Source: Micromonospora terminaliae (GTDB lineage: Bacteria; Actinomycetota; Actinomycetes; Mycobacteriales; Micromonosporaceae). Taken from it: DNA of 64,000 bases. Shown here in pieces: positions 2,828 to 13,933 of this stretch. Numbering within the stretch: position 1 is the first letter of the stretch; every line of letters starts with the position of its first letter. The position numbers were made by a program, and so were the translations under genes. The stretch spans positions 5,281,001-5,345,000 of the forward strand of contig NZ_CP045309.1 of assembly GCF_009671205.1 (NCBI RefSeq). Reading direction: 5' to 3'. Under the pieces are notes generated by a model. The model was not told where the DNA came from and did no database searches. It worked only from the letters and a program-made list of their open reading frames with translations.

Positions 2828-3025
2828 ATTCGTTCCGGCGGATGATCGTCCGGCCGAGGGCAGCCACCGATGCAGCGCCCCGCGATCCGGATCACAAGCA
2901 GCCCTTCGGCCCCGGTCTCAAAGAACCGCCGGTCCAGCCCTCAGATATTTCCTCGGTTCGGTGCAACCGTGGCGTCGCTCTGCTGCGTGAGTGGGAGGAG
3001 CAGCCTCCGAGGAGAGTGGGTCGGC

Positions 3026-3625
3026 GTGACAGAGGAGGACTACCAGGCGTTCTACGCATCGACCTTCGCCCGGTTGGTCGGTCAGGTGTATCTGCTGACC
3101 GGCGACTTCGCTGAGGCGCAGGACGCCGTTCAAGAGGCGTTTGTCCGAGCCTGGAGCAGACGTCGCCGGTTCGCCGACGGGGACGAGCCGGAGGCGTGGA
3201 TCAGAACAGTCGCCCGCCGGGTCGCGGTCAGCCGTTGGCGTTCCGCACGGTCCGGGTTGGCGGCCTGGCGACGGCGCGGGCCGGTCCAGCACGTGCCTGC
3301 GCCCGGCGTGGAGACTCCGCTGATCGTCGCGGCCCTGCAACGTCTGCCCGAGGAGCAGCGACGCGCCATCGTGCTGCACCACCTGTGCGATCGGTCGGTC
3401 GAGCAGGTCGCCGCGGAGATGGGCGTGCCATCCGGCACGGTCAAGGCCCGGCTGTCGCGCGGCCGGACGGCTCTGCGACAGATCCTCGACGAGGCGGACG
3501 CCTCGCATCAGTGGAGCCGAACGGGGTCCGGCTCCACACCCCACGCGGGCGAGCCGCGGTCCGGCACACCGGGCCGTTCCGACCGACCGGACGACATCAC
3601 GACCTTGGAGCGTCGTCATGCCTGA
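3026..3625 (+). CDS. SigE-family ECF RNA polymerase sigma factor
   Basis: A 199-aa extracytoplasmic-function sigma factor. Region 2 (about residues 5-75) has the pattern YQAFYASTFARLVGQVYLLTG, then AEAQDAVQEAFVRAW, which contacts core RNA polymerase and the -10 element. Region 4 (about 105-160) holds LPEEQRRAIVLHHL and the helix-turn-helix VEQVAAEMGVPSGTVKARLS for -35 binding. The start is taken as GTG 3026 because a purine-rich site (gaggaga) sits about 10 bp upstream and SigE-type proteins begin near this point; the frame is open further upstream. The stop overlaps the start of the next gene, so the two are probably translationally coupled. No classic zinc-binding anti-sigma gene follows. 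Confidence 0.88.
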   Translation: MTEEDYQAFYASTFARLVGQVYLLTGDFAEAQDAVQEAFVRAWSRRRRFADGDEPEAWIRTVARRVAVSRWRSARSGLAAWRRRGPVQHVPAPGVETPLIVAALQRLPEEQRRAIVLHHLCDRSVEQVAAEMGVPSGTVKARLSRGRTALRQILDEADASHQWSRTGSGSTPHAGEPRSGTPGRSDRPDDITTLERRHA

Positions 3626-4508
3626 ACGCCACAACGTCGACCGAGAGAGCCGCGGCCTCGACAGCCACCTGGAAGGTTCGCTGCCCGGCCTGGACACCAT
3701 GCTCCGGGACGCGGCCGGCGACGCGGCGCGCCGGGCGATCGTGCCGTCGTACGACCTGGTCCGGGGCACGGCGCGTGGCCGGCGTACCGCGCGGGTCGCG
3801 ACGGCCGGGGTGTTCGGGACAGTGCTTTTCCTGGTGATCGGGATGGCGGCGGTCACCGGCGCCGGGCCGGGCCGGCACGAGGACCGGCCGCCGGCCGCGT
3901 CGGCCACCACCCTCGACCCGTCGTTGCGTGGGTACTGGACAAGGATCCCGATCCTGACCTGGACGCCGGAGGCGAGCCGCGAGGCGTCCGAGGTGTCGTC
4001 CACGAACGAGTTCCTTACGGCGGTGTTTTCCGCGCTTGCCCCGGGGGATCACGACTATTCAAACCTCCCGGATCTGCGGAAGCTCTTTCCCGACGCTCCG
4101 ACCGGTGGCCCGGCCGTCGCCATCCATCAGTCGGTCACGAGAGCCGAACTGGAGCGCGCCGCCGCCAACCTGCGCAAGCTCGACGGCGTGCAGGACGCGC
4201 GGGTCGTCGAGGTGCGAGGCCTGTGGTTCACCGTGTCGGCCACCGCCCCCGCCGCCTCCGGCAGCGGGCTGCCCCCGGTCATCGACGTCACCGGGACCGG
4301 CGCCAAAGGCTCCGCGAGCGGGCAACGCCGGGACGCACAGAACCGTTGGGTGATCTGGGTACGCGCCACGTACTTCGGACCGGCCATCGACCGTGCCACC
4401 TTCGACCTGCTCCGCACCCGGACCGCCGAAGCCGTGCACGTCGATGTCTCGCAGGTGGTGGTCACGGCGGAATCGTCCGTCCGGAAGCCGAAGCCGACGA
4501 CGAGCTGA
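3618..4508 (+). CDS. Single-pass membrane protein coupled to the sigma factor
   Basis: A 296-aa protein whose ATG overlaps the last 8 bases of the sigma gene. It has an N-terminal cytoplasmic stretch (1 to ~58), one membrane helix (about 59-81, VATAGVFGTVLFLVIGMAAV) and an extracytoplasmic part of ~210 residues with two stretches that look like a paired alpha/beta fold. No HxxxCxxC anti-sigma motif is visible. By position it may control the sigma factor or sense an envelope signal; this is inference from the overlap only, and no named family is recognised. Confidence 0.75.
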   Translation: MPERHNVDRESRGLDSHLEGSLPGLDTMLRDAAGDAARRAIVPSYDLVRGTARGRRTARVATAGVFGTVLFLVIGMAAVTGAGPGRHEDRPPAASATTLDPSLRGYWTRIPILTWTPEASREASEVSSTNEFLTAVFSALAPGDHDYSNLPDLRKLFPDAPTGGPAVAIHQSVTRAELERAAANLRKLDGVQDARVVEVRGLWFTVSATAPAASGSGLPPVIDVTGTGAKGSASGQRRDAQNRWVIWVRATYFGPAIDRATFDLLRTRTAEAVHVDVSQVVVTAESSVRKPKPTTS

Positions 4509-4624
4509 CGCTGGCGTGGGCCGGGCCCACGAGGCGGCCGGCCCGGCCCCGTAGCTGGTCCGGTGACGGATCACAAGCGTCCCACCACGGGCAGTTGATC
4601 GTTCTTCCTGGCAAGGTTGATGGC

Positions 4625-5737
4625 ATGGCCGCCATGATCCGATCCCGCCTGACCGATTGGACCACCCTCGTACCCCTGATCGCGGTCGTCGTGCTCGCGG
4701 CCACCTGGAACCGGAAGCTGTCCGGCCCGCTGGTCTTCCTGGTGGCCGCGCTGCTCGCCGGCGCGGTGCTGGCGGCCGTGCACCACGCCGAGGTGGTGGC
4801 GCACAGGGTGGGCGAGCCGCTGGGGTCGCTGGTGCTCGCGGTGGCGGTCACCGTGATCGAGGTCGGTCTGATCGTCACGCTGATGATCAGCGGCGGCGAC
4901 AAGACACAGGCGCTGGCCCGGGACACCGTCTTCGCCGCCGTGATGATCACCTGCAACGGGATACTCGGCCTGTCCCTGCTGCTCGGCGCGCTGCGGCGGC
5001 GGGTGGCGGTGTTCAACCCGGAGGGCACCGGCGGGGCGCTGGCCACCGTGGCCACGCTCGCCACCCTCAGCCTGGTGGTGCCCACCTTCACCACGAGCCG
5101 GCCCGGCCCGGAGTTCTCCCCCGCGCAACTGGCCTTCGCGGCGGTCGCCTCGCTCGCCCTGTACGGCCTGTTCGTGATGGTGCAGACCGGCCGGCACCGC
5201 GACTACTTCCTGCCGGTGACGCAGGAGGGCAGCATCATTCCCGAGGACGCCGACGGTGACGGGCACGCCGACCCGCCGTCGACGCGTACCGCCCTGGCCA
5301 GCCTGGCGTTGCTGGTGGTGGCCCTGGTCGCGGTGGTCGGGGACGCGAAGAGCGTCTCCCCGGCGATCGAGGCGGGCGTCGAGGCGGCGAACCTGCCGCA
5401 GGCGTTCGTCGGCGTGGTCATCGCCCTGCTGGTGCTGCTGCCGGAGACCCTCGCCGCCGCCCGGGCGGCCCGCCGGGACCGGGTGCAGATCAGCCTCAAT
5501 CTGGCGCTCGGCTCGGCCATGGCCAGCATCGGCCTGACCATCCCGGCCATAGCGCTGGCCTCGATCTGGCTGGAGGGCCCGCTGCTGCTGGGCCTGGGCG
5601 GCACCCAGATGACGCTGCTGGCGCTGACCGCGGTGACCGGCGTGCTCACCGTGGTGCCGGGCCGGGCGACCGTGCTCCAGGGCGGGGTGCACCTGGTGCT
5701 GCTGGCCGCATTCGTCTTCCTCGCCGCCAGCCCCTGA
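4625..5737 (+). CDS. chaA: Calcium/cation:proton antiporter, ChaA-like
   Basis: A 370-aa integral membrane protein with about 11 hydrophobic segments. The two inverted halves typical of the Ca2+:cation antiporter superfamily are visible: an acidic motif in the first half (VAVTVIEVGLIVTLMISGG) and one in the second (VIALLVLLPETLAAARAA), joined by an acidic cytoplasmic loop (EDADGDGHADPP). Length and order match ChaA of enterobacteria, which exchanges Na+, K+ or Ca2+ for protons. The ATG at 4625 was chosen because hydrophobic sequence begins 14 residues later; the frame is open upstream but not protein-like. The gene stands alone. Confidence 0.82.
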   Translation: MAAMIRSRLTDWTTLVPLIAVVVLAATWNRKLSGPLVFLVAALLAGAVLAAVHHAEVVAHRVGEPLGSLVLAVAVTVIEVGLIVTLMISGGDKTQALARDTVFAAVMITCNGILGLSLLLGALRRRVAVFNPEGTGGALATVATLATLSLVVPTFTTSRPGPEFSPAQLAFAAVASLALYGLFVMVQTGRHRDYFLPVTQEGSIIPEDADGDGHADPPSTRTALASLALLVVALVAVVGDAKSVSPAIEAGVEAANLPQAFVGVVIALLVLLPETLAAARAARRDRVQISLNLALGSAMASIGLTIPAIALASIWLEGPLLLGLGGTQMTLLALTAVTGVLTVVPGRATVLQGGVHLVLLAAFVFLAASP

Positions 5738-5803
5738 CCGTCGGCCGGCCCGTGACCGTCGGCTCGCCCGTGACCGTCGGCCGGCCCGTGACCGTCGGCG
5801 AGG
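5735..5803. repeat. 18-bp tandem repeat, 3.8 copies
   Basis: The unit tgaccgtcggccggcccg occurs at 5735-5752, 5753-5770 (two changes) and 5771-5788, and a 15-bp partial copy ends at 5803. The first copy begins at the TGA of the antiporter gene, and the array fills the space up to the stop of the converging gene at 5810. Confidence 0.92.
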
Positions 5804-5809
5804 GAGCCG

Positions 5810-6283
5810 TCAGTCGTGCAGTTCGGTGCGGGCCACCTCGGCGAACGCCGCCGACAGGTGGTCGGACAGGGGCCGGCCGGTGGCCGCCATCAGATCGGCG
5901 ATGAGCAGCGGGGCGTGCCGGGCGATCGCGGCCGCATCCGGTGGCGCGTCGTCGTCGCCCGGGTCGTAGACGCCGAGCGCGCTCGCCAGCAGCACGAGCA
6001 GCACGTGCGGGTCGACGTCGGCCCGCCAGGCCGCGTTCGACCGGACGCACCGCTCCAGCACCTGGCGTACGTCGTCGCCGTCCAACCCGTCCGGGTGGCT
6101 CTCCTCCAGCAGCAACCGGACCACGCCGCCGAGCACCAGCCCGGCCCGGTCCGCGGAGGTGAGCCGTTCCACCGCCGGCCCGTACGCCGCACCGTCGCGC
6201 TCGGCGGCGGCGGTCACGGCCACCATGGCGGCATCGGCGATCTCCCGAGCGGCCGCGGGGAGGTGGCGCCAGGTCGTGGTCAC
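5810..6283 (-). CDS. Uncharacterised all-helical protein (157 aa)
   Basis: The protein is Ala/Leu/Asp-rich and predicted mainly helical. It resembles in general style the C-terminal ligand domain of TetR-type regulators, but no DNA-binding part is present and no family is recognised. A GTG start at 6283 gives a protein that begins VTTTWRHLPAAAREIAD; the frame is open to 6391 but the extra residues look non-coding. The stop lies 7 bp from an 18-bp tandem repeat array, and the gene converges with the antiporter gene. Confidence 0.6.
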   Translation of the reverse strand: MTTTWRHLPAAAREIADAAMVAVTAAAERDGAAYGPAVERLTSADRAGLVLGGVVRLLLEESHPDGLDGDDVRQVLERCVRSNAAWRADVDPHVLLVLLASALGVYDPGDDDAPPDAAAIARHAPLLIADLMAATGRPLSDHLSAAFAEVARTELHD

Positions 6284-6476
6284 CGGGCCAGCATGGCAGA
6301 CCGCACCGACAGGACGCCCGTCAGCCGCATCAGGATGTTTTGAGCTCGAATATCCGGGGCACCGAGATCCGCACTGTTGATCGAGCGGCACGCGGCGCCC
6401 GAGATGCCGGATGCGCTCGGTCGTACGTCATGACAGGACCGTGGCACGCGACGCGCGTACCGGAATGGAGCTGATC

Positions 6477-7166
6477 GTGAGCACACCGGAACTCACACCG
6501 TTGTCCCTCGACGAGTTGGCCGCAGAGGCGGCGACCGCGCTGCCCACGAAGGAGGTGATCTCCCTCCTCGACCTCAACGTGGACCTCGACCTCGGGCTGG
6601 ATCTCGCGGCGCCGATCGACCTCGCGGTGGCCGCCAACGCCAACGTCGCCGCCCCGATCGACGCCGCTGTGGGCGCCAACATCCTCTCCACGGGCTCGAC
6701 CGCGGCCGCCCTGTCCGACCAGGGCGTCCTCATCGACCAGACCATCTCCGGCCACGCGATCGCCACCGCTCCCCAGGACAGCGCGATCGACCAGTCCAAC
6801 GACGTGATCGACGACGGCACGACCGACCCGGGCACCGCGGACCCGGGCACCACCGACCCCGGCACCGGTGGCACGACCGACGGAGACGTCACCGTCCCGA
6901 CCGACCCGGCGTCGATGCTCGACGGCGACCTGCTGAACGTCGACGTCAACGTGGCCCTCGACGCCGACCTCGCCGCGCCGGTCGCCGGCGCGGTCGCCGC
7001 CAACGCCAACGTCGCGGCGCCGATCGACGCCGCCGTCTCCGCGAACGTCGCGTCGGTGGACTCCAGCGCCACCGCCATCTCCCAGCAGGACGCGATCATC
7101 ACCCAGCACCTCGACGACGTGACGGCGCGCGCCACGGCCGACCAGCAGGCCGAGATCACCCAGTAG
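6477..7166 (+). CDS. Cys-free two-repeat acidic protein, putative partner or substrate of the adjacent M50 protease
   Basis: A 229-aa protein with no cysteine, no signal peptide and no membrane helix. Residues 1-30 form a leader-like helix (ELTPLSLDELAAEAATALPT). Two related modules follow, about residues 31-90 and 152-210. Both contain VAANANVAAPIDAAV followed by AN, then Ser/Thr/Ala-rich stretches and a Gln-rich end (SDQGVLIDQ and SQQDAIITQ). A linker (115-132) is made of DPGT units. GTG 6477 is chosen because GGAG lies 6 bp upstream; ATG 6465 and 6411 are alternatives. The stop is 2 bp before the start of the M50 metalloprotease gene, so the two form one unit. I do not recognise a named family. 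The modular layout and the coupling suggest a substrate or exported partner of the protease. Confidence 0.8.
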   Translation: MSTPELTPLSLDELAAEAATALPTKEVISLLDLNVDLDLGLDLAAPIDLAVAANANVAAPIDAAVGANILSTGSTAAALSDQGVLIDQTISGHAIATAPQDSAIDQSNDVIDDGTTDPGTADPGTTDPGTGGTTDGDVTVPTDPASMLDGDLLNVDVNVALDADLAAPVAGAVAANANVAAPIDAAVSANVASVDSSATAISQQDAIITQHLDDVTARATADQQAEITQ

Positions 7167-7168
7167 CG

Positions 7169-9667
7169 ATGAGTGTCATCTCGCCGTCCGGCCCGATCAC
7201 CTCGCAAGGGCGGGGCGCCGTCAGCACGGTGCTCCGCCCTGCGGGGGGTTCCCGACCGGAGCCGGACACCGCCGAGGCCACCGGATCCGGCCCGCGGGAG
7301 GTCGTGCCCGCCCACGCGCCGGGACTGGAACTGCTGGGCGAACTGCCGGGCTCCGGGTATCGCCAACCACCCGGGCTGGTACGGCGTGACGACGGCCAGA
7401 CCTGCCAGCTCACCCGGCTGTTGTATCTCGTTCTCGAGGCGATGGACGGCCGGCGCGGCTACCCGGAGATCGCGGCGCTGGTCAGCCGGAGGATCGACCG
7501 TCTGGTCACCGCGGACAACGTGCGCATGCTGACCGAGCAGAAGCTGCGCCCGCTCGGCCTCATCGCACGGTCCGACGGCGCCGCACCGACGGCGCGCAAG
7601 GCCAATCCCCTGCTGGCGCTGCGGTTCCGACTCGTGGTCTCCAACCCGCGGGTGACCCGACGGATCACCCGGCCGTTCGCGGCCCTGTTCCGCCCACCGG
7701 TCGTCGCCCTCGTCCTGGTCGCCTTCCTGCTGTCCACCGGATGGGTGCTGTTCGAGAAGGGGCTCGCCTCCGCCACCCACCAGGTGTTCGACAGGCCGGG
7801 CCTGCTGCTGCTGGTCTTCGCCATCACCATCGTCTCGGCCGGCTTCCACGAGTTCGGGCACGCCGCGGCCTGCCGGTACGGCGGCGCCACCCCCGGCACC
7901 ATGGGCGTGGGCCTGTACCTGGTCTGGCCCGCCTTCTACACCAACGTCGACGACAGCTACCGGCTCGGACGGGCGGGCCGGATCCGCGTCGACCTCGGCG
8001 GCCTGTACTTCAACGCGATCGTCGCGGTGGCGATCTTCGCCACCTGGGCGGTCACCCGGTGGGACGCGCTGCTGCTCGTCATCGTCGCCCAGGTCCTGCA
8101 GATGCTCCGGCAACTGGCGCCGTTCGTCCGCTTCGACGGCTATCACATCCTGGCGGACCTGACCGGGGTGCCGGACCTCTATGCCCGCATCAAGCCGACG
8201 CTGCTCGGCCTGCTCCCGACCCGGTGGAACCGCCCGGAGTCCAAGGTGCTGAAGCCGTGGGCCCGGGTGGTGGTGACCCTGTGGGTGCTGATCGTGGTGC
8301 CCCTGCTCCTGATCACGCTGGTGCTGATGGTGACGGCCCTGCCCCGTGTCGTGGCGACCGCCTGGCAGGGCCTGCAGCGCCAGTCCGTGCTCCTGGTCGC
8401 GAACTGGGTGGACGGGGACGTCCCCAGCATCGGCGTCCGGCTGCTGTCCGTGCTCGCCATCTGCCTGCCCCTGCTCGGCACGGCGTACCTCCTGGTCCGG
8501 CTGGTGCGGCGGACGGTCCGCTCGGTCTGGCGGGCCACGGCGGGCCGGCGGCTGCATCGCGTCGGCGCGGTGGTGGCCGGCGGCGCGCTGGTGGCGGCGC
8601 TGGTCTGGGCCTGGTGGCCGGACCCGGCGACCTACCGGCCGGTGCAGGAGCACGAGCGCGGGACCGTCGCCGACGCACTGCCCGCCGGGCAGCGGCATTC
8701 CGCCGTGCCGGCGGTCGAGCCGACGCTCCGGGTCGGGGAGCGGCGGACGGTGACCACCGTCTGGCCCGGCGCCACCACGCCACCCACCCCGGGCGAGCAG
8801 CGACTGGCGCTCGTCCTGGTGCCCCGGGAGCCCGCCTCGCCCGCGGCCGGCGGGCACCCGCGATCGACCTGGGTCTTCCCGTTCAACCCGCCGGAGGCAC
8901 CGGGCCCGGGTGACAACCAGGCCCTGGCGGTCAACACCCGGGACGGCTCCACCGTCTACGACGTGGCGTTCGCCCTCGTGTGGGCCGACGGGGACGAGGG
9001 CGACGTCGACAACCGCAACGAGGCGTACGCCCTGGCGAGCTGCCGGGACTGCCGCACCGTGGCGGTCTCGTTTCAGGTGGTGCTCGTCGTCGGGCCCGCC
9101 GACGTGATCGTGCCGGAGAACGTGTCGGCCGCCGTGAACTACTCCTGCCGGGACTGCCTGACGTACGCGGTGGCCTCGCAACTCGTGTTCACCCTGCCCG
9201 AGGGGCTGAGCGACGACACGAAGGACCGCATCACCGCGCTGTGGCGGGAGATCGAGCGGTTCGGCCAGCACATCCGGGGGCTCGGTCCGCAGGAGATCCA
9301 GGTCCGCCTGGAGGGGTTCAAGGCACAGATCGTGGAGATCATCGGGCAGGATCCGGCGGTCGCGGCGACGGCCGGCGGCACGCCCTCCGCGACCGCTACG
9401 ACCGCGGTGCCGGCCGCCGGCACGACCCCGAGCCCCACCGACACGCCGTCCGTCGCGCCGTCGGCGCCCGCCGGCTCCACCGCACCGGCGGCCGACACCC
9501 CGTCGCCCGCGGACTCCGCGTCCACCTCACCGGTGCCCACCCCGTCGGGTACGACTCCGTCGGCCACCCCGGCCGAGGGGTCACCGTCGGCCACCACCGT
9601 CCAGGAGTCCCCGTCGGACGCCACGGCCGAGGGGTCGGAGATGGCGACACCGACGCCGGTCGGCTGA
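7169..9667 (+). CDS. Large membrane M50-type metalloprotease with PqqD-like N-domain and duplicated CxxC ectodomain
   Basis: An 832-aa protein. Residues 50-130 resemble a PqqD-like peptide-binding fold (TRLLYLVLEAMDGRRGYPEI, then EQKLRPLGLI). The membrane protease core follows: helices at about 178-196 and 210-228, the zinc motif H227-E-F-G-H231 and the third-ligand motif F-D323-G-Y-H, with further helices at about 280-315, 365-392, 422-445 and 463-482. An extracytoplasmic region (~485-740) contains two similar units built on CRDC at 625-628 and 660-663, each followed by T-x-AV-x-S/A-x-Q and a hydrophobic strand. The tail (~740-832) is a Pro/Ser/Thr/Ala-rich stretch. Annotators usually call such proteins putative peptide zinc metalloproteases. 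It starts 2 bp after the repeat protein and ends in an 18-bp terminator, so the two are a closed transcription unit. Confidence 0.85.
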   Translation: MSVISPSGPITSQGRGAVSTVLRPAGGSRPEPDTAEATGSGPREVVPAHAPGLELLGELPGSGYRQPPGLVRRDDGQTCQLTRLLYLVLEAMDGRRGYPEIAALVSRRIDRLVTADNVRMLTEQKLRPLGLIARSDGAAPTARKANPLLALRFRLVVSNPRVTRRITRPFAALFRPPVVALVLVAFLLSTGWVLFEKGLASATHQVFDRPGLLLLVFAITIVSAGFHEFGHAAACRYGGATPGTMGVGLYLVWPAFYTNVDDSYRLGRAGRIRVDLGGLYFNAIVAVAIFATWAVTRWDALLLVIVAQVLQMLRQLAPFVRFDGYHILADLTGVPDLYARIKPTLLGLLPTRWNRPESKVLKPWARVVVTLWVLIVVPLLLITLVLMVTALPRVVATAWQGLQRQSVLLVANWVDGDVPSIGVRLLSVLAICLPLLGTAYLLVRLVRRTVRSVWRATAGRRLHRVGAVVAGGALVAALVWAWWPDPATYRPVQEHERGTVADALPAGQRHSAVPAVEPTLRVGERRTVTTVWPGATTPPTPGEQRLALVLVPREPASPAAGGHPRSTWVFPFNPPEAPGPGDNQALAVNTRDGSTVYDVAFALVWADGDEGDVDNRNEAYALASCRDCRTVAVSFQVVLVVGPADVIVPENVSAAVNYSCRDCLTYAVASQLVFTLPEGLSDDTKDRITALWREIERFGQHIRGLGPQEIQVRLEGFKAQIVEIIGQDPAVAATAGGTPSATATTAVPAAGTTPSPTDTPSVAPSAPAGSTAPAADTPSPADSASTSPVPTPSGTTPSATPAEGSPSATTVQESPSDATAEGSEMATPTPVG

Positions 9668-9708
9668 GACCCACCTCACCCCGTGAGCAACGGGGTGAGG
9701 TGGGTCTC
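9666..9708 (+). terminator. Strong 18-bp terminator after the protease gene
   Basis: The arms 9666-9683 and 9691-9708 are perfect reverse complements (begins gagacccacctc), with loop tgagcaa. The stem overlaps the last two bases of the stop codon. Confidence 0.88.
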
Positions 9709-9755
9709 TCGAAAACCGTTCGCCGCCTGTCGTACCCCCGCAACAGAATCCAGGC

Positions 9756-11033
9756 ATGCTGCGCCGCGCCCTGCCCGCCCGTCCCGAAGCCCGTCGGATC
9801 CTGATCGGCACCCTGCTGTCGGCCGTCGGGCGCGGCCTCACCCTGCCCTTCCTCTTCATCTACCTCACCGACGTGCGCGGGCTGAGCGACCCCCGGGCCG
9901 GCCTGGTGATCGGCTGGTTCGGCGCGGTGACGCTGGCGCTGTCACCGCTGGGCGGCACGCTGATCGACCGGTTCGGCGCGCGTCGGGTGGTGCTCCCCTG
10001 CCTGGTGATCGAGGCGGTCGGCACCGGCTCGCTGGCCCTGGTCGACTCGACGGCCTCGGCGTTCGGCGTGATGACGCTGATCGCCGTGGGCAGTTCGGCG
10101 ATCTGGTCCGGCCAGAACACGATCCTCGCCTCGCTCACCGGCGACGGTGAGCGGCAGCGGGTGTTCGGGTTGAACTTCGCGCTGCTCAACCTGGGTATCG
10201 GGGTGGGCGGCCTGATCTCCGGCGCGGTGGTCGACGTGGCCCGGCCGGTCACCTTCCAGGCCATCTACCTGCTGGACGCGCTGAGCTACCTGATGCCGGG
10301 GCTCATCCTGCTCACCCTCCCGCACGTCGGGCACCGGCTGGCCAGGGCCGCGACGGAGGCCACCCGGCCGGCCGGGGGTTACCTCACCGTGCTGCGGGAC
10401 CGGCCGTTCCGCCGGCTGGTCATCTTCGGTCTGGTCCTCACCACCTGTGGCTACGCGCAGATCGAGGTGGGCTTCGCCGCGTACTCGGTGCGGGTGGTGG
10501 AGGTGTCGCCGCGGGTGGTGGCCTGGGCGCTGGCCGGCAACACCGTGATGATCGTGCTCTCGCAGCTGCTGGTGATCCGCCGGATGGAGGGCCGGAGCCG
10601 GACCGGCGCGCTCGCCGCGGTGGGTGCGGTCTTCGCGGCCGCCTGGCTGGTTCTGGGCGCGGCGGGCGTGATCGGCACGGGCAACGCGCTGCTCGCGGCG
10701 CTGGGCGTGGTGGCCTGCTCGGCGATCTTCGGGTTCGGCGAGACGATGCTGTCGCCGGTGATGCCGGCGCTGACGAACGCGCTCGCCACCGACGAGCTGC
10801 GCGGGCGGTACAACGCCATGAGCTCGATGATCTTCGGGATCAGCGGGGTCATCGGCCCGGTCACCGCGGGCCCGCTGATCGGTGCGGCACACGGCCGGCT
10901 CTGGGTGGCCGTCGTGGTGGGCGGCTGCCTCACCGCCTCGGTGCTGGCCCTGTCGTTGCGCCGGCTGCTCACCGCCGGTCAGGACGGCCGCGTCGCCGCC
11001 GTCGTCCGGGAGCCGGAGCCCGCGCACGCCTGA
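9756..11033 (+). CDS. MFS transporter, drug-efflux type
   Basis: A 425-aa protein with 12 predicted membrane helices in two halves. The MFS motif A region between helices 2 and 3 reads GGTLIDRFGARRV, and the central loop lies near residues 190-210. Such proteins export small molecules using the proton gradient; the substrate cannot be predicted. Helix 11 contains SSMIFGISGVIGPVTAG. The gene stands alone between two strong hairpins and has no adjacent regulator. Confidence 0.85.
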   Translation: MLRRALPARPEARRILIGTLLSAVGRGLTLPFLFIYLTDVRGLSDPRAGLVIGWFGAVTLALSPLGGTLIDRFGARRVVLPCLVIEAVGTGSLALVDSTASAFGVMTLIAVGSSAIWSGQNTILASLTGDGERQRVFGLNFALLNLGIGVGGLISGAVVDVARPVTFQAIYLLDALSYLMPGLILLTLPHVGHRLARAATEATRPAGGYLTVLRDRPFRRLVIFGLVLTTCGYAQIEVGFAAYSVRVVEVSPRVVAWALAGNTVMIVLSQLLVIRRMEGRSRTGALAAVGAVFAAAWLVLGAAGVIGTGNALLAALGVVACSAIFGFGETMLSPVMPALTNALATDELRGRYNAMSSMIFGISGVIGPVTAGPLIGAAHGRLWVAVVVGGCLTASVLALSLRRLLTAGQDGRVAAVVREPEPAHA

Positions 11034-11052
11034 GCACTGTCGCCGCACGCGA

Positions 11053-11084
11053 ACGGGCCCCGGAGCATCAGCTCCGGGGCCCGT
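11053..11084 (+). terminator. Bidirectional terminator
   Basis: A 14-bp perfect stem (acgggccccggagc / gctccggggcccgt) with loop atca sits between the converging MFS and nucleotidase genes and can serve both. Confidence 0.85.
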
Positions 11085-11102
11085 CGTCGTGCGGGTCGGC
11101 CG

Positions 11103-12845
11103 TCAGGCGGCCGGAACCTCCGCGGTGGTCTGGATCCGGTTCAGCGCCGGCGCGGAGACCGGCGACTTCTCGGTCAGGTACGCGGTGAAGGCGTCCAGGT
11201 CGATCATGCCGGTGACGGCGTTCGTGCCACCGGTGAGGACGCTGAAGCCGTCGCCACCGCCGGAGAGGAAGTTGTTCACCGTGACGCGGTAGGTCGCGGC
11301 GTCGGTGACCGGGGTGCCGTTGATGGTGAGGCTGCCCCGGACCACGCGGGTGCCGGTGCACGGCGACCCGGCCGGCGCCGTGGTGCCGTTGACGTCGACG
11401 ACGTAGTGCACGGTCGAGGACGCGTAGAGCACCTTGGCGGTGGTGAACTGCTGCTCCAGCAGGCAGTAGAGCTGGGCGCCGGTCAGGTCCAGCGTCACCA
11501 GGTTGTTGGCGAACGGCTGGACGGTGAACGCCTCGGCGTAGGTGACCGGGCCGGCGTCGAGGTCGGCGCGGACACCACCGGGGTTCATGAACGCGGCGAC
11601 CGCGTTCTGCTCGTTGTCGGTGGCGGCGAGCTGGGCGTCGGCGATGACGTTGCCGAGCGGCGACTCACCGGTCTGGTACGTCGGCTTGCCGTTGACGTCG
11701 ACCCCGGTCTGGTACAGGTTCTCCTGGGTCTTGGTGAGCACGCTCGTGGTCTCGCCGACCACCTTGTCGGCCACCGGGCCGAGGGCGGTCTTGTAGTGGG
11801 TGATCAGGTCGTTCGTGGCCTTGTCCGGGTCGACGGTCCGGGTGACCACGACGTTGTTAGCGGACGCGCTGACGATGTCCTTGCTCCGCCGGTCGATCTT
11901 CAGGTCGATGTCGGTGACCAGGCGACCGAAGGAGCTGGCGCTGGTGACCAGCTTGCCGTTGATGTTGCAGTTGTACGCGGCGTGGGTGTGCCCGCTGACG
12001 ATCACGTCGATCGCCGGGTCCATCCGGTTCGCGATGTCGACGATCGGGCCGCTGAACCCGGTGCAGTCGTTGATGCCGCCGCCGTTCTGCACGCCGCCCT
12101 CGTGGAGCAGCACCACGATGGACTGCACGCCCTGGGCCTGCAGGATGCGCGCGTACCTGTTGGCGGTGTCCGCCTCGTCGGCGAAGGACAGGCCGGCGAC
12201 GCCCTGCTGGCTGACGATCTGCGGGGTGCCCTCGAGGGTCATCCCGATGAAGCCGATCTTCACGCCGTCGATCTTCTTGATGCCGTACGGCGGCAGCAGC
12301 GGCTTGCCGGTGGCGGTCTTGAAGGCGTTCGCCGACAGGTACTGGAAGTCGGCGCCCGCGAACGGGGTGCCGTCGCCGCAGCCGTCCACCGGGTGGCAGC
12401 CGCCGTTCTGCATCCGGAGCAGCTCGGCGGCGCCCTCGTCGAACTCGTGGTTGCCGACGCTGGTGAACTCGAGCCCGGCGAGGTTCATCTCCTCGATGGT
12501 GGGCTCGTCGTGGAACGCGGCGGAGAGCAGCGGCGAGGCGCCGATGAGGTCACCGGCGGCGACCGTGACGGTGTGCTCCCGCTCCTCCTCGGTGGTGCCC
12601 CGCAGCGCGTCGAGGTGGGCGGCCAGGTATGCCGCGCCACCGGCGGTCTTCCCGTCGATGGTGCCGCTGGAACCGGTCGGCGGCTCCAGGTTGCCGTGGA
12701 AGTCGTTGATGGCGAGCAGCTTGACGTCGATCGGCGTCGGGTCGGCTGCGGCCTGGTCGGGGTGTACGGCGACCGCGGTGAACGCGGTGGCGGCGAGTGC
12801 GGCCAGGCCGACGGCGGCCCGGCGGCGCATCCCGGGGACGGACAT
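11103..12845 (-). CDS. Secreted 5'-nucleotidase / metallophosphatase
   Basis: A 580-aa exported enzyme. A signal peptide covers about residues 1-35 (RRR, then an Ala/Val-rich core, cleavage near QAAA). The N-terminal metallophosphoesterase domain has NDFHGN, AAGDLIGAS, GNHEFD, LLHEGG and SGHTHAAY. The C-terminal substrate-binding domain (about 370-580) has NPGGVRADL and NNFLSGGGDGF. The order and length match 5'-nucleotidases and 2',3'-cyclic phosphodiesterases that release phosphate and nucleosides outside the cell. ATG 12845 is preferred because gaggag lies just upstream on the minus strand and the signal peptide begins there. The 284-bp gap to the divergent hydrolase gene holds both promoters. 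Confidence 0.92.
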   Translation of the reverse strand: MSVPGMRRRAAVGLAALAATAFTAVAVHPDQAAADPTPIDVKLLAINDFHGNLEPPTGSSGTIDGKTAGGAAYLAAHLDALRGTTEEEREHTVTVAAGDLIGASPLLSAAFHDEPTIEEMNLAGLEFTSVGNHEFDEGAAELLRMQNGGCHPVDGCGDGTPFAGADFQYLSANAFKTATGKPLLPPYGIKKIDGVKIGFIGMTLEGTPQIVSQQGVAGLSFADEADTANRYARILQAQGVQSIVVLLHEGGVQNGGGINDCTGFSGPIVDIANRMDPAIDVIVSGHTHAAYNCNINGKLVTSASSFGRLVTDIDLKIDRRSKDIVSASANNVVVTRTVDPDKATNDLITHYKTALGPVADKVVGETTSVLTKTQENLYQTGVDVNGKPTYQTGESPLGNVIADAQLAATDNEQNAVAAFMNPGGVRADLDAGPVTYAEAFTVQPFANNLVTLDLTGAQLYCLLEQQFTTAKVLYASSTVHYVVDVNGTTAPAGSPCTGTRVVRGSLTINGTPVTDAATYRVTVNNFLSGGGDGFSVLTGGTNAVTGMIDLDAFTAYLTEKSPVSAPALNRIQTTAEVPAA

Positions 12846-13129
12846 GGAACTCCTCGTGAGACTCGGCGCGTGGCTGTCCGGGCGATGGTTCGCACCGGTG
12901 ACCCTGGACGTGCCGTGACAGGGGTCGATCGCGGATGACGGCGGTCGGGGGACGCCGCCTGCCGAAGCAAGCTTGCCACCCGTCAAGCGATCGGTCGACC
13001 GGGGCAGTCCATCTCAACTGCGGATACCGACAGCAACTTGCGCCGGTACGCCCGACTAGTCGGACATGACCGGCGGGTGAATTCCTTCATGCCCTGCCGC
13101 TGTCGGAGGTATGGACTAGGAAAGTAGCC

Positions 13130-13933
13130 ATGGAGTCGAGCGGGACCAACTGGACGGTGGACTCGGTGCGGTCCGCCGACGGCACCACGATCGCCTACGA
13201 GACGGCCGGTGACGGGCCGCCCATCATCCTGGTCGGCGGGGCCTTCAACGACCGGAGCACGACCCGCCCGCTGGCCGCCGCGCTCGCCGCCGACTTCACC
13301 GTCTACGGCTACGACCGCCGGGGTCGCGGCGGCAGCGGTGACACCGGACCGTACGCGGTGCAGCGCGAGATCGAGGACGTGGCGGCCCTGACCGACCGGG
13401 CCGGCGGCAGCGCCCACCTCTACGGCCTCTCCTCCGGCGCGATCCTCGCCGCGTATGTGGCGGCCGAGGGGGTTCCGGTCGCCGGGCTGGCGCTCTTCGA
13501 GCCGCCGTTCCAGGCGGGCCCGCACGGTGGCCGGAAGCTGGGGCTGGCCGAGCGGTTGAGCGAGCTGGTCTCGGCGGGCCGGCGCGACGACGCGGTCGCC
13601 CTCTTCCTGACCGACGCGGTCGGCGTGCCCACCGAGGCGGTCGGCGCGATGCGCGAGGCCCCCGAGTGGGGCTGGATGGCGGGGCTGGCGCACACCCTGG
13701 CCTACGACACCACGGTCACGGGCTCCGGCGGCCTGCCCGAGGACCGGCTCGCGGCGATCACCGCTCCCACCGTGGTGGTGGACAGCACCGGCAGCCCGCC
13801 GTGGCTGCGGGACGCGGCCGTCGCGACCGCCGGGGCGATCCCCGGGGCGACCCACCTCAGCCTGGCGGGTGGCTTCCACGAGGTGCCGCCGGAGGTGCTG
13901 GCCCCCGCGCTGCGCGACGCCCTGCTCGGCTGA
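13130..13933 (+). CDS. Alpha/beta-hydrolase
   Basis: A 267-aa enzyme of the alpha/beta-hydrolase fold. The oxyanion-hole region reads VGGAFNDRS and the nucleophile elbow is G99-L-S101-S-G103. An acid residue is likely in the VVVDSTGSP strand, and the catalytic His is in GGFHEVPPE near the C-terminus. The substrate is unknown. ATG 13130 has a good site (aggaaag) upstream. The gene is transcribed away from the secreted nucleotidase and ends 43 bp before a 15-bp hairpin. Confidence 0.85.
   Translation: MESSGTNWTVDSVRSADGTTIAYETAGDGPPIILVGGAFNDRSTTRPLAAALAADFTVYGYDRRGRGGSGDTGPYAVQREIEDVAALTDRAGGSAHLYGLSSGAILAAYVAAEGVPVAGLALFEPPFQAGPHGGRKLGLAERLSELVSAGRRDDAVALFLTDAVGVPTEAVGAMREAPEWGWMAGLAHTLAYDTTVTGSGGLPEDRLAAITAPTVVVDSTGSPPWLRDAAVATAGAIPGATHLSLAGGFHEVPPEVLAPALRDALLG

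Follow-up and report, generated by a model that had tools for sequence, protein, structure and literature searches.

Daptides were described on the principle of an RRE domain fused to a site-2 protease and encoded beside short leader-bearing open reading frames (ORFs), and were defined by the leader ELExMEAP and an invariant C-terminal Thr; changes in the leader motif were found to abolish a modification step served by an RRE protein, and according to the authors an RRE-dependent intramembrane peptidase then takes off the leader (PMC10036551). In epipeptides, the M50 protease EpeP was found to suffice for the production of EpeX and is believed both to cleave this peptide and to carry it out of the cell; deletion of EpeP did not fully abolish EpeX production (PMC10885120). 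The present analysis concerns a two-gene unit in a stretch of 64,000 nucleotides of Micromonospora terminaliae (NZ_CP045309.1, positions 5,281,001 to 5,345,000), hereafter called the window, in which ORF1, encoding a leader-bearing repeat protein, is followed by ORF2, encoding an RRE-M50 protease. The pair probably forms a minimal leader-guided maturation unit, in which the RRE would read the leader, the M50 site would cut and the core would cross the membrane to the surface. The unit contained the following features, numbered by window position.

6477-7166, forward strand: ORF1, leader-bearing two-module repeat protein and presumed substrate, 229 aa, GTG start
6501-6566, forward strand: leader region, residues 9-30, LSLDELAAEAATALPTKEVISL, with the pattern E13 L14.. 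E17. A.. L22 P23. K25.. I28 S29
6564-6812, forward strand: module 1, residues 30-112, with units ending Q88 and Q106
6915-7163, forward strand: module 2, residues 147-229, with units ending Q210 and the terminal Q229
7169-9667, forward strand: ORF2, RRE, M50 intramembrane protease, CxxC ectodomain and Ser/Pro/Thr tail, 832 aa
7298-7576, forward strand: RRE/PqqD-like domain, residues 44-136
7646-8176, forward strand: M50/site-2 protease core, residues 160-336, with HEFGH at 227-231 and FDGYH at 322-326
8627-9349, forward strand: predicted extracellular domain, residues ~487-727, with CRDC at 625-628 and 660-663
9374-9664, forward strand: Ser/Pro/Thr/Ala-rich tail, read from the sequence and a low-confidence coil in the model

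Gene pairing and the shared leader

The repeat gene was found directly upstream of the protease gene, on the same strand, in all 80 fetched loci, which were the best 80 of 288 confirmed protease relatives from named genomes; in one of them (L105) the open frame covered the last partner module only. The distance from the stop of the partner to the first ATG or GTG of the protease frame, where the true start may be later, never exceeded 47 nt in the 80 loci. The hosts included Micromonosporaceae, Micrococcaceae, Intrasporangiaceae, Nocardioidaceae, Pseudonocardiaceae, Mycobacteriaceae and Geodermatophilaceae. Among the candidates scored, 3991 relatives of ORF1 and 5127 of ORF2 were found at E<=0.001, and partner matches at this threshold were present in 31 of 394 genomes of the class. 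Of these genomes, 22 had a partner match at E<1e-25, and in all 22 a protease match adjoined the partner; in the nine genomes with weaker partners it adjoined in six, lay on another contig in one and was not listed in two. The initial annotation had asked whether homologues of the two genes co-occur, and the adjacency in all 80 loci and all 22 strong-partner genomes contradicts the notion that they are mostly found apart.

The protease core was matched at E<=0.001 in 108 of 388 genomes, and the 41 matches at E<1e-70 outside the window-like group A, all of which were fetched, were taken as its relatives. The leader test covered 38 of these 41 (L144, L145 and L150 were without upstream sequence). 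In every one of the 38, some of them from Streptomyces, the upstream short ORFs were found to share the N-terminal motif EL..E.[AG]E.LPx[RK]xx[LM]; the count is made up of 37 of 37 loci with more than 1 kb upstream and one further locus in agreement, and the motif was derived from the same loci. The loose form LPx[RK]xx[LMVI] was found in 8 of 36 antisense control stretches and in 4 of 34 each of the downstream and far-upstream ones, and the two specific leader forms in 0-1 of 34-36. The 74 loose-form precursors were found to contain Glu at -2 (70), -9 (59) and -5 (55) and Leu at -8 (60), followed by Arg at +3 and Leu/Met at +6 in all 74, where the selection had fixed L and P, [RK] at +3 and also [LMVI] at +6 and had left the other positions free. 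The same leader spacing with LPxK was present in 87 of 88 cases in group A, and eleven more distant M50 proteins (27-32% identity) gave loose matches in four and, by eye, the specific form in none. Protease relatives were also seen on Streptomyces plasmids (NZ_CP107797.1:200437-201558 and NZ_CP102333.1:75078-76178), with ~42% identity over 43-45% of the query.

The leader of ORF1 was found to have the cross-family spacing of the related loci; in the ORF1 family alignment L22, P23, K25 and S29 were invariant and E13, L14 and E17 almost invariant, and the model placed a helix at residues 11-18. Recognition of the leader by the N-terminal domain of ORF2, which had been put forward in the initial annotation, is strongly supported as a prediction by the leader motif common to otherwise differing cargoes; its further points, that the protease cleaves or threads the first protein and that the product acts outside, are retained as inferences.

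The daptide proteases MpaP/DapP (NF041824, daptide_HExxH) likewise contain an N-terminal RRE on a site-2 protease, with short shared-leader ORFs alongside and several precursors per cluster. Unlike in daptides, ORF2 scored 103 bits on NF041824 (cut-off 300), ORF1 contained the leader ELAAEAATALPTKEVIS and a C-terminal Gln, the family leader had the form given above and not ELExMEAP, and the substrate was a 229-aa repeat protein; no decarboxylase, aminotransferase or methyltransferase was found among the seven scanned window neighbours (2870-13930), nor any widely shared gene in the 80 loci. The epipeptide proteases EpeP/YydH-LiaK (NF058609) are similar in being M50 membrane proteases, of which EpeP is thought to cut and export a ribosomal peptide, whereas ORF2 scored 47 bits on NF058609 (cut-off 225), carries a fused RRE and ectodomain and has no conserved neighbour enzyme. 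Because of the other leader, the lack of conserved modifying enzymes and the protein-sized cargo, the family is set apart as putative leader-guided intramembrane proteases, related to yet distinct from those of daptides and epipeptides. No description of the leader or the pair was found in titles and abstract starts, a search that left subscription journals mostly outside; the initial annotation had put forward a candidate undescribed system, and the principle of an RRE on a site-2 protease is already known for daptides (PMC10036551).

Protease architecture, ectodomain and cargoes

Residues 44-136 of ORF2 were found in the model to form the winged helix of three strands and three helices expected of an RRE, like TbiB1 (5v1v), PqqD (5sxy) and TruD (4bs9), beside a leader-bearing substrate gene, and in the structural alignment the rows within 1 Z were tied and included a non-RRE methyltransferase domain; unlike in TbiB1, PqqD and TruD, the domain sits on a membrane protease. 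The HEFGH and FDGYH motifs were invariant or nearly so in the alignments and lay within the modelled helical bundle, as expected of an M50 protease, with a Pfam PF02163 score of 14.4 bits, below the gathering score of 27.2. The nearest solved M50 folds in the structural alignment of the model included SpoIVFB with pro-sigma-K. Foldseek with the whole model gave nothing under E 0.001, the later structural alignment being the informative one, and a sequence search of solved structures gave no useful match. The relatives of ORF2 have so far been labelled 'putative peptide zinc metalloprotease' or 'hypothetical' in the databases. The middle of the ectodomain was modelled at low confidence, and the Ser/Pro/Thr/Ala-rich tail probably spans the wall. 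The layout given in the initial annotation, a Cys-free repeat protein followed after 2 bp by a PqqD-like/M50 membrane protein with a HEFGH/FDGYH core, two CRDC units and a Ser/Pro/Thr tail, was borne out.

The ectodomain was fused to the protease in 8 of the 8 group A loci examined and was encoded separately, by an ORF near the protease, in 10 of the 11 group B and 5 of the 6 Streptomyces LPGREALG loci; three C3 loci gave weak matches (best 25-36 bits), and none was found in two Cys-type (C2) loci or in 18 C4 and C5 loci. At E<=1e-5 it was present in 36 of 388 genomes, all of them with a family protease as well. The CxxC ectodomain is, on these matches, a predicted third part of the system, fused in the window and separate in several relatives. 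In the group B loci L141:4399-5217, L142:4632-5537 and L147:4470-5807 the ectodomain ORF and the protease were encoded on opposite strands, with the ectodomain ORF lying on the precursor side of the protease. Two Micrococcaceae loci (L038:8236-9093 and L086:8301-9098) contained an extra ectodomain ORF directly upstream of the partner (228-234 bits). At L217:5833-7101 (G136:C4) an ectodomain ORF of 237 bits was found on its own, the 12 kb taken for this locus containing neither protease core nor partner; it is either an orphan or a remnant.

ORF1 was found to contain 0 Cys, Phe, Trp and Tyr, 47 Ala and 31 Asp residues and to be acidic. Each module contained NANVAAPIDAAV and, twice over, a unit ending Q...[IVL].Q, and the last repeat Gln (Q229) was also the C-terminal residue. 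No clear transmembrane helix was found in ORF1 (best 19-residue hydropathy 1.39) and no Sec-type signal was seen in its core. ORF1 and its small relatives gave sub-threshold matches only against Pfam and NCBIfam, and the database names 'peptidoglycan-binding protein' for relatives of ORF1 and 'FXSXX-COOH protein' for the small relatives were unsupported by these scans. Curli and other surface beta-repeat proteins contain regularly spaced Gln repeats, with subunits in small sets. The ORF1 family resembles curli in both respects, with weak structural support; the Pfam curlin family was not among the matches listed at E up to 10 for ORF1 or for seven small relatives, in a search where HMMER filters can drop weak matches.

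In the cargo survey, 72 of 128 loci passed the position filter, and the counts for group A were taken from profile searches instead. The cargoes of group B were found to be window-like single modules in tandem sets, usually of three, and those of Streptomyces were LPGREALG proteins of ~72 aa. The SPGSN and SPWS types were usually present once each, in genomes of family f20, and further types behind the leader were Cys-containing or Gly/aromatic-rich and of 60 aa. A hydrophobic-x-Gln motif within 4 residues of the C-terminus was found in 47 of 74 precursors, compared with a rate of 0.063 after shuffling, and group A proteins contained it in 75 of 89 cases. On the protease tree of 73 rows, with the labels of L144 and L150 assumed, every cargo type formed a single group, and the eight cargo-label groups needed 7 changes, which is the minimum. 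The 60-aa precursors L160:4011-4190, L179:5946-6125 and that of L177 had a Gly/aromatic-rich core, AVWDYTD...GGLF, behind the leader and a bacteriocin-like look.

Proposed maturation route and rival explanations

ORF1 would be made in the cytoplasm with its N-terminal leader EL..E....LPxK..[IV]S, which the RRE domain of ORF2 would bind, bringing the beginning of the cargo up to the intramembrane M50 site for a cut close to the leader/core boundary. The freed core would then cross the membrane by or with ORF2, the CxxC ectodomain and the wall-spanning tail would receive it outside, and the mature core would act or assemble at the cell surface, where its glutamine-spaced repeats would build the assembly. 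Leader-guided cleavage is proposed because the RRE, the shared leader and the intramembrane protease occur together, and we strongly infer leader binding by the RRE and cleavage by the protease from what RRE domains and M50 proteases do elsewhere. Hypothesised beyond this are export by ORF2 and assembly at the surface: the former is suggested by the sufficiency of EpeP for product formation (PMC10885120), and the latter is weakly suggested by the repeats, by the conservation and by the parts on the wall side. The predicted structure of ORF1, with strands on the repeats of both modules, was poor (pLDDT 51), the beta-strand hydrophobic-alternation test was negative, and ORF1 was better conserved than protease residues 45-440 in just 882 of 3027 divergent pairs, which leaves the surface assembly weakly supported. 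ORF1 was better conserved than the whole protease in 2889 of these pairs (mean identity 59.6% against 52.1%), and the proposal that it is the more conserved protein fails once protease residues 45-440 alone are compared (62.4%).

ORF1 might instead be the source of one or several peptides with membrane or antagonistic activity, freed by the protease as in an epipeptide-like, unmodified antimicrobial or signalling system, with EpeP, sufficient for EpeX production and thought to be both cutter and exporter, as its precedent (PMC10885120). The relatives often contain two or three tandem small precursors, and the AVWDY cargo type of ~60 aa is rich in Gly and aromatics. The cargo of the window, however, is protein-sized, acidic and without aromatics, and no immunity, modification or transport gene was widely conserved beside the pair in the 80 loci. 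The ORF1 family is also well conserved, at 59.6% over the 3027 divergent pairs, whereas antagonists usually change faster, an argument made weaker because ORF1 is not mostly above protease residues 45-440; on the whole such a system appears unlikely, though less so than the two readings that follow. In a split pathway of ribosomally synthesized and post-translationally modified peptides (RiPPs), the protease would do no more than read the leader and see to export or quality control, and the tailoring enzymes would have their genes in other parts of the genome. Modification is the usual task that RRE domains serve, and several cargo types contain Cys, Trp or Asn, but the two-gene unit recurs in differing surroundings and the window cargo is without Cys or aromatic residues, which makes this arrangement improbable. 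The nearness of the fold to SpoIVFB with pro-sigma-K, a regulatory system, would suit an ORF2 acting as a regulatory site-2 protease that degrades ORF1 as a soluble regulator or stress sensor, with no export. This is very improbable, given that ORF1 has no clear transmembrane helix (hydropathy 1.39) and no above-cut-off family match, and that the variable, often tandem cargoes, the ectodomain and the RRE better fit precursor handling.

With leader-guided maturation as the preferred reading, the leader code that several cargo families lacking a useful annotation have in common now defines an actinobacterial membrane protease clade, and orphan genes gain a testable three-part scheme of leader cargo, RRE-protease and CxxC ectodomain. 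The recurrence of the pairing across soil actinobacteria with differing cargoes points to a little-explored route of maturation, perhaps of export, and raises the question of RRE-guided intramembrane proteases for ordinary proteins, beyond small modified peptides. It is a tentative and rather doubtful extension that the RRE-M50 proteins of the clade are stand-alone maturation-and-export machines for unmodified, leader-chosen protein cargoes, working without Sec, Tat or an ABC transporter and followed by surface assembly, many with a CxxC receiving domain. Many hosts belong to soil genera (Micromonospora, Arthrobacter, Streptomyces), so that knock-outs and mass spectrometry are direct.

Surroundings of the gene pair

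The partner was present in 5 of 160 genomes of the genus Micromonospora. The nearest Micromonospora copy was found to have flanks common to the window, and in the other 3 of 4 copies the DNA similarity to the window was limited to ~6414-9344/9397; because of the patchy occurrence and the similarity confined to the pair in these three, the unit appears to behave as a patchy two-gene cassette. No widely conserved neighbour was found beside the pair, clusters spanning at least 3 family labels never exceeding 12 of the 80 loci, and the larger neighbour clusters were Micrococcaceae synteny, one of them with a single further genome added. The seven scanned window neighbours were found to be a sigma factor, a Na/Ca exchanger, an MFS transporter, a 5'-nucleotidase, a hydrolase and two ORFs without match, and none of them suggested a functional link to the pair.

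The end of the unit was found to contain the following element.

9666-9708, forward strand: GC-rich hairpin with a 19-bp stem and no T-run, computed fold -43.6 kcal/mol

The closing terminator of the initial annotation is retained as a hairpin, with a stem of 19 bp instead of 18 bp and without a T-run. The other Micromonospora copies contained GC-rich inverted repeats on the 3' side by eye, the sequence differing in 3 of 4. The GTG start of ORF1 at 6477 was backed by the comparison of five Micromonospora copies. A ATGGAGCTGA stretch at 6465-6480 of the window overlaps the ribosome site upstream of ORF1, and the same frame in the copies L222-L225 (4 of 4) ends in a TGA overlapping the GTG start; this stretch is perhaps a coupling mini-ORF.
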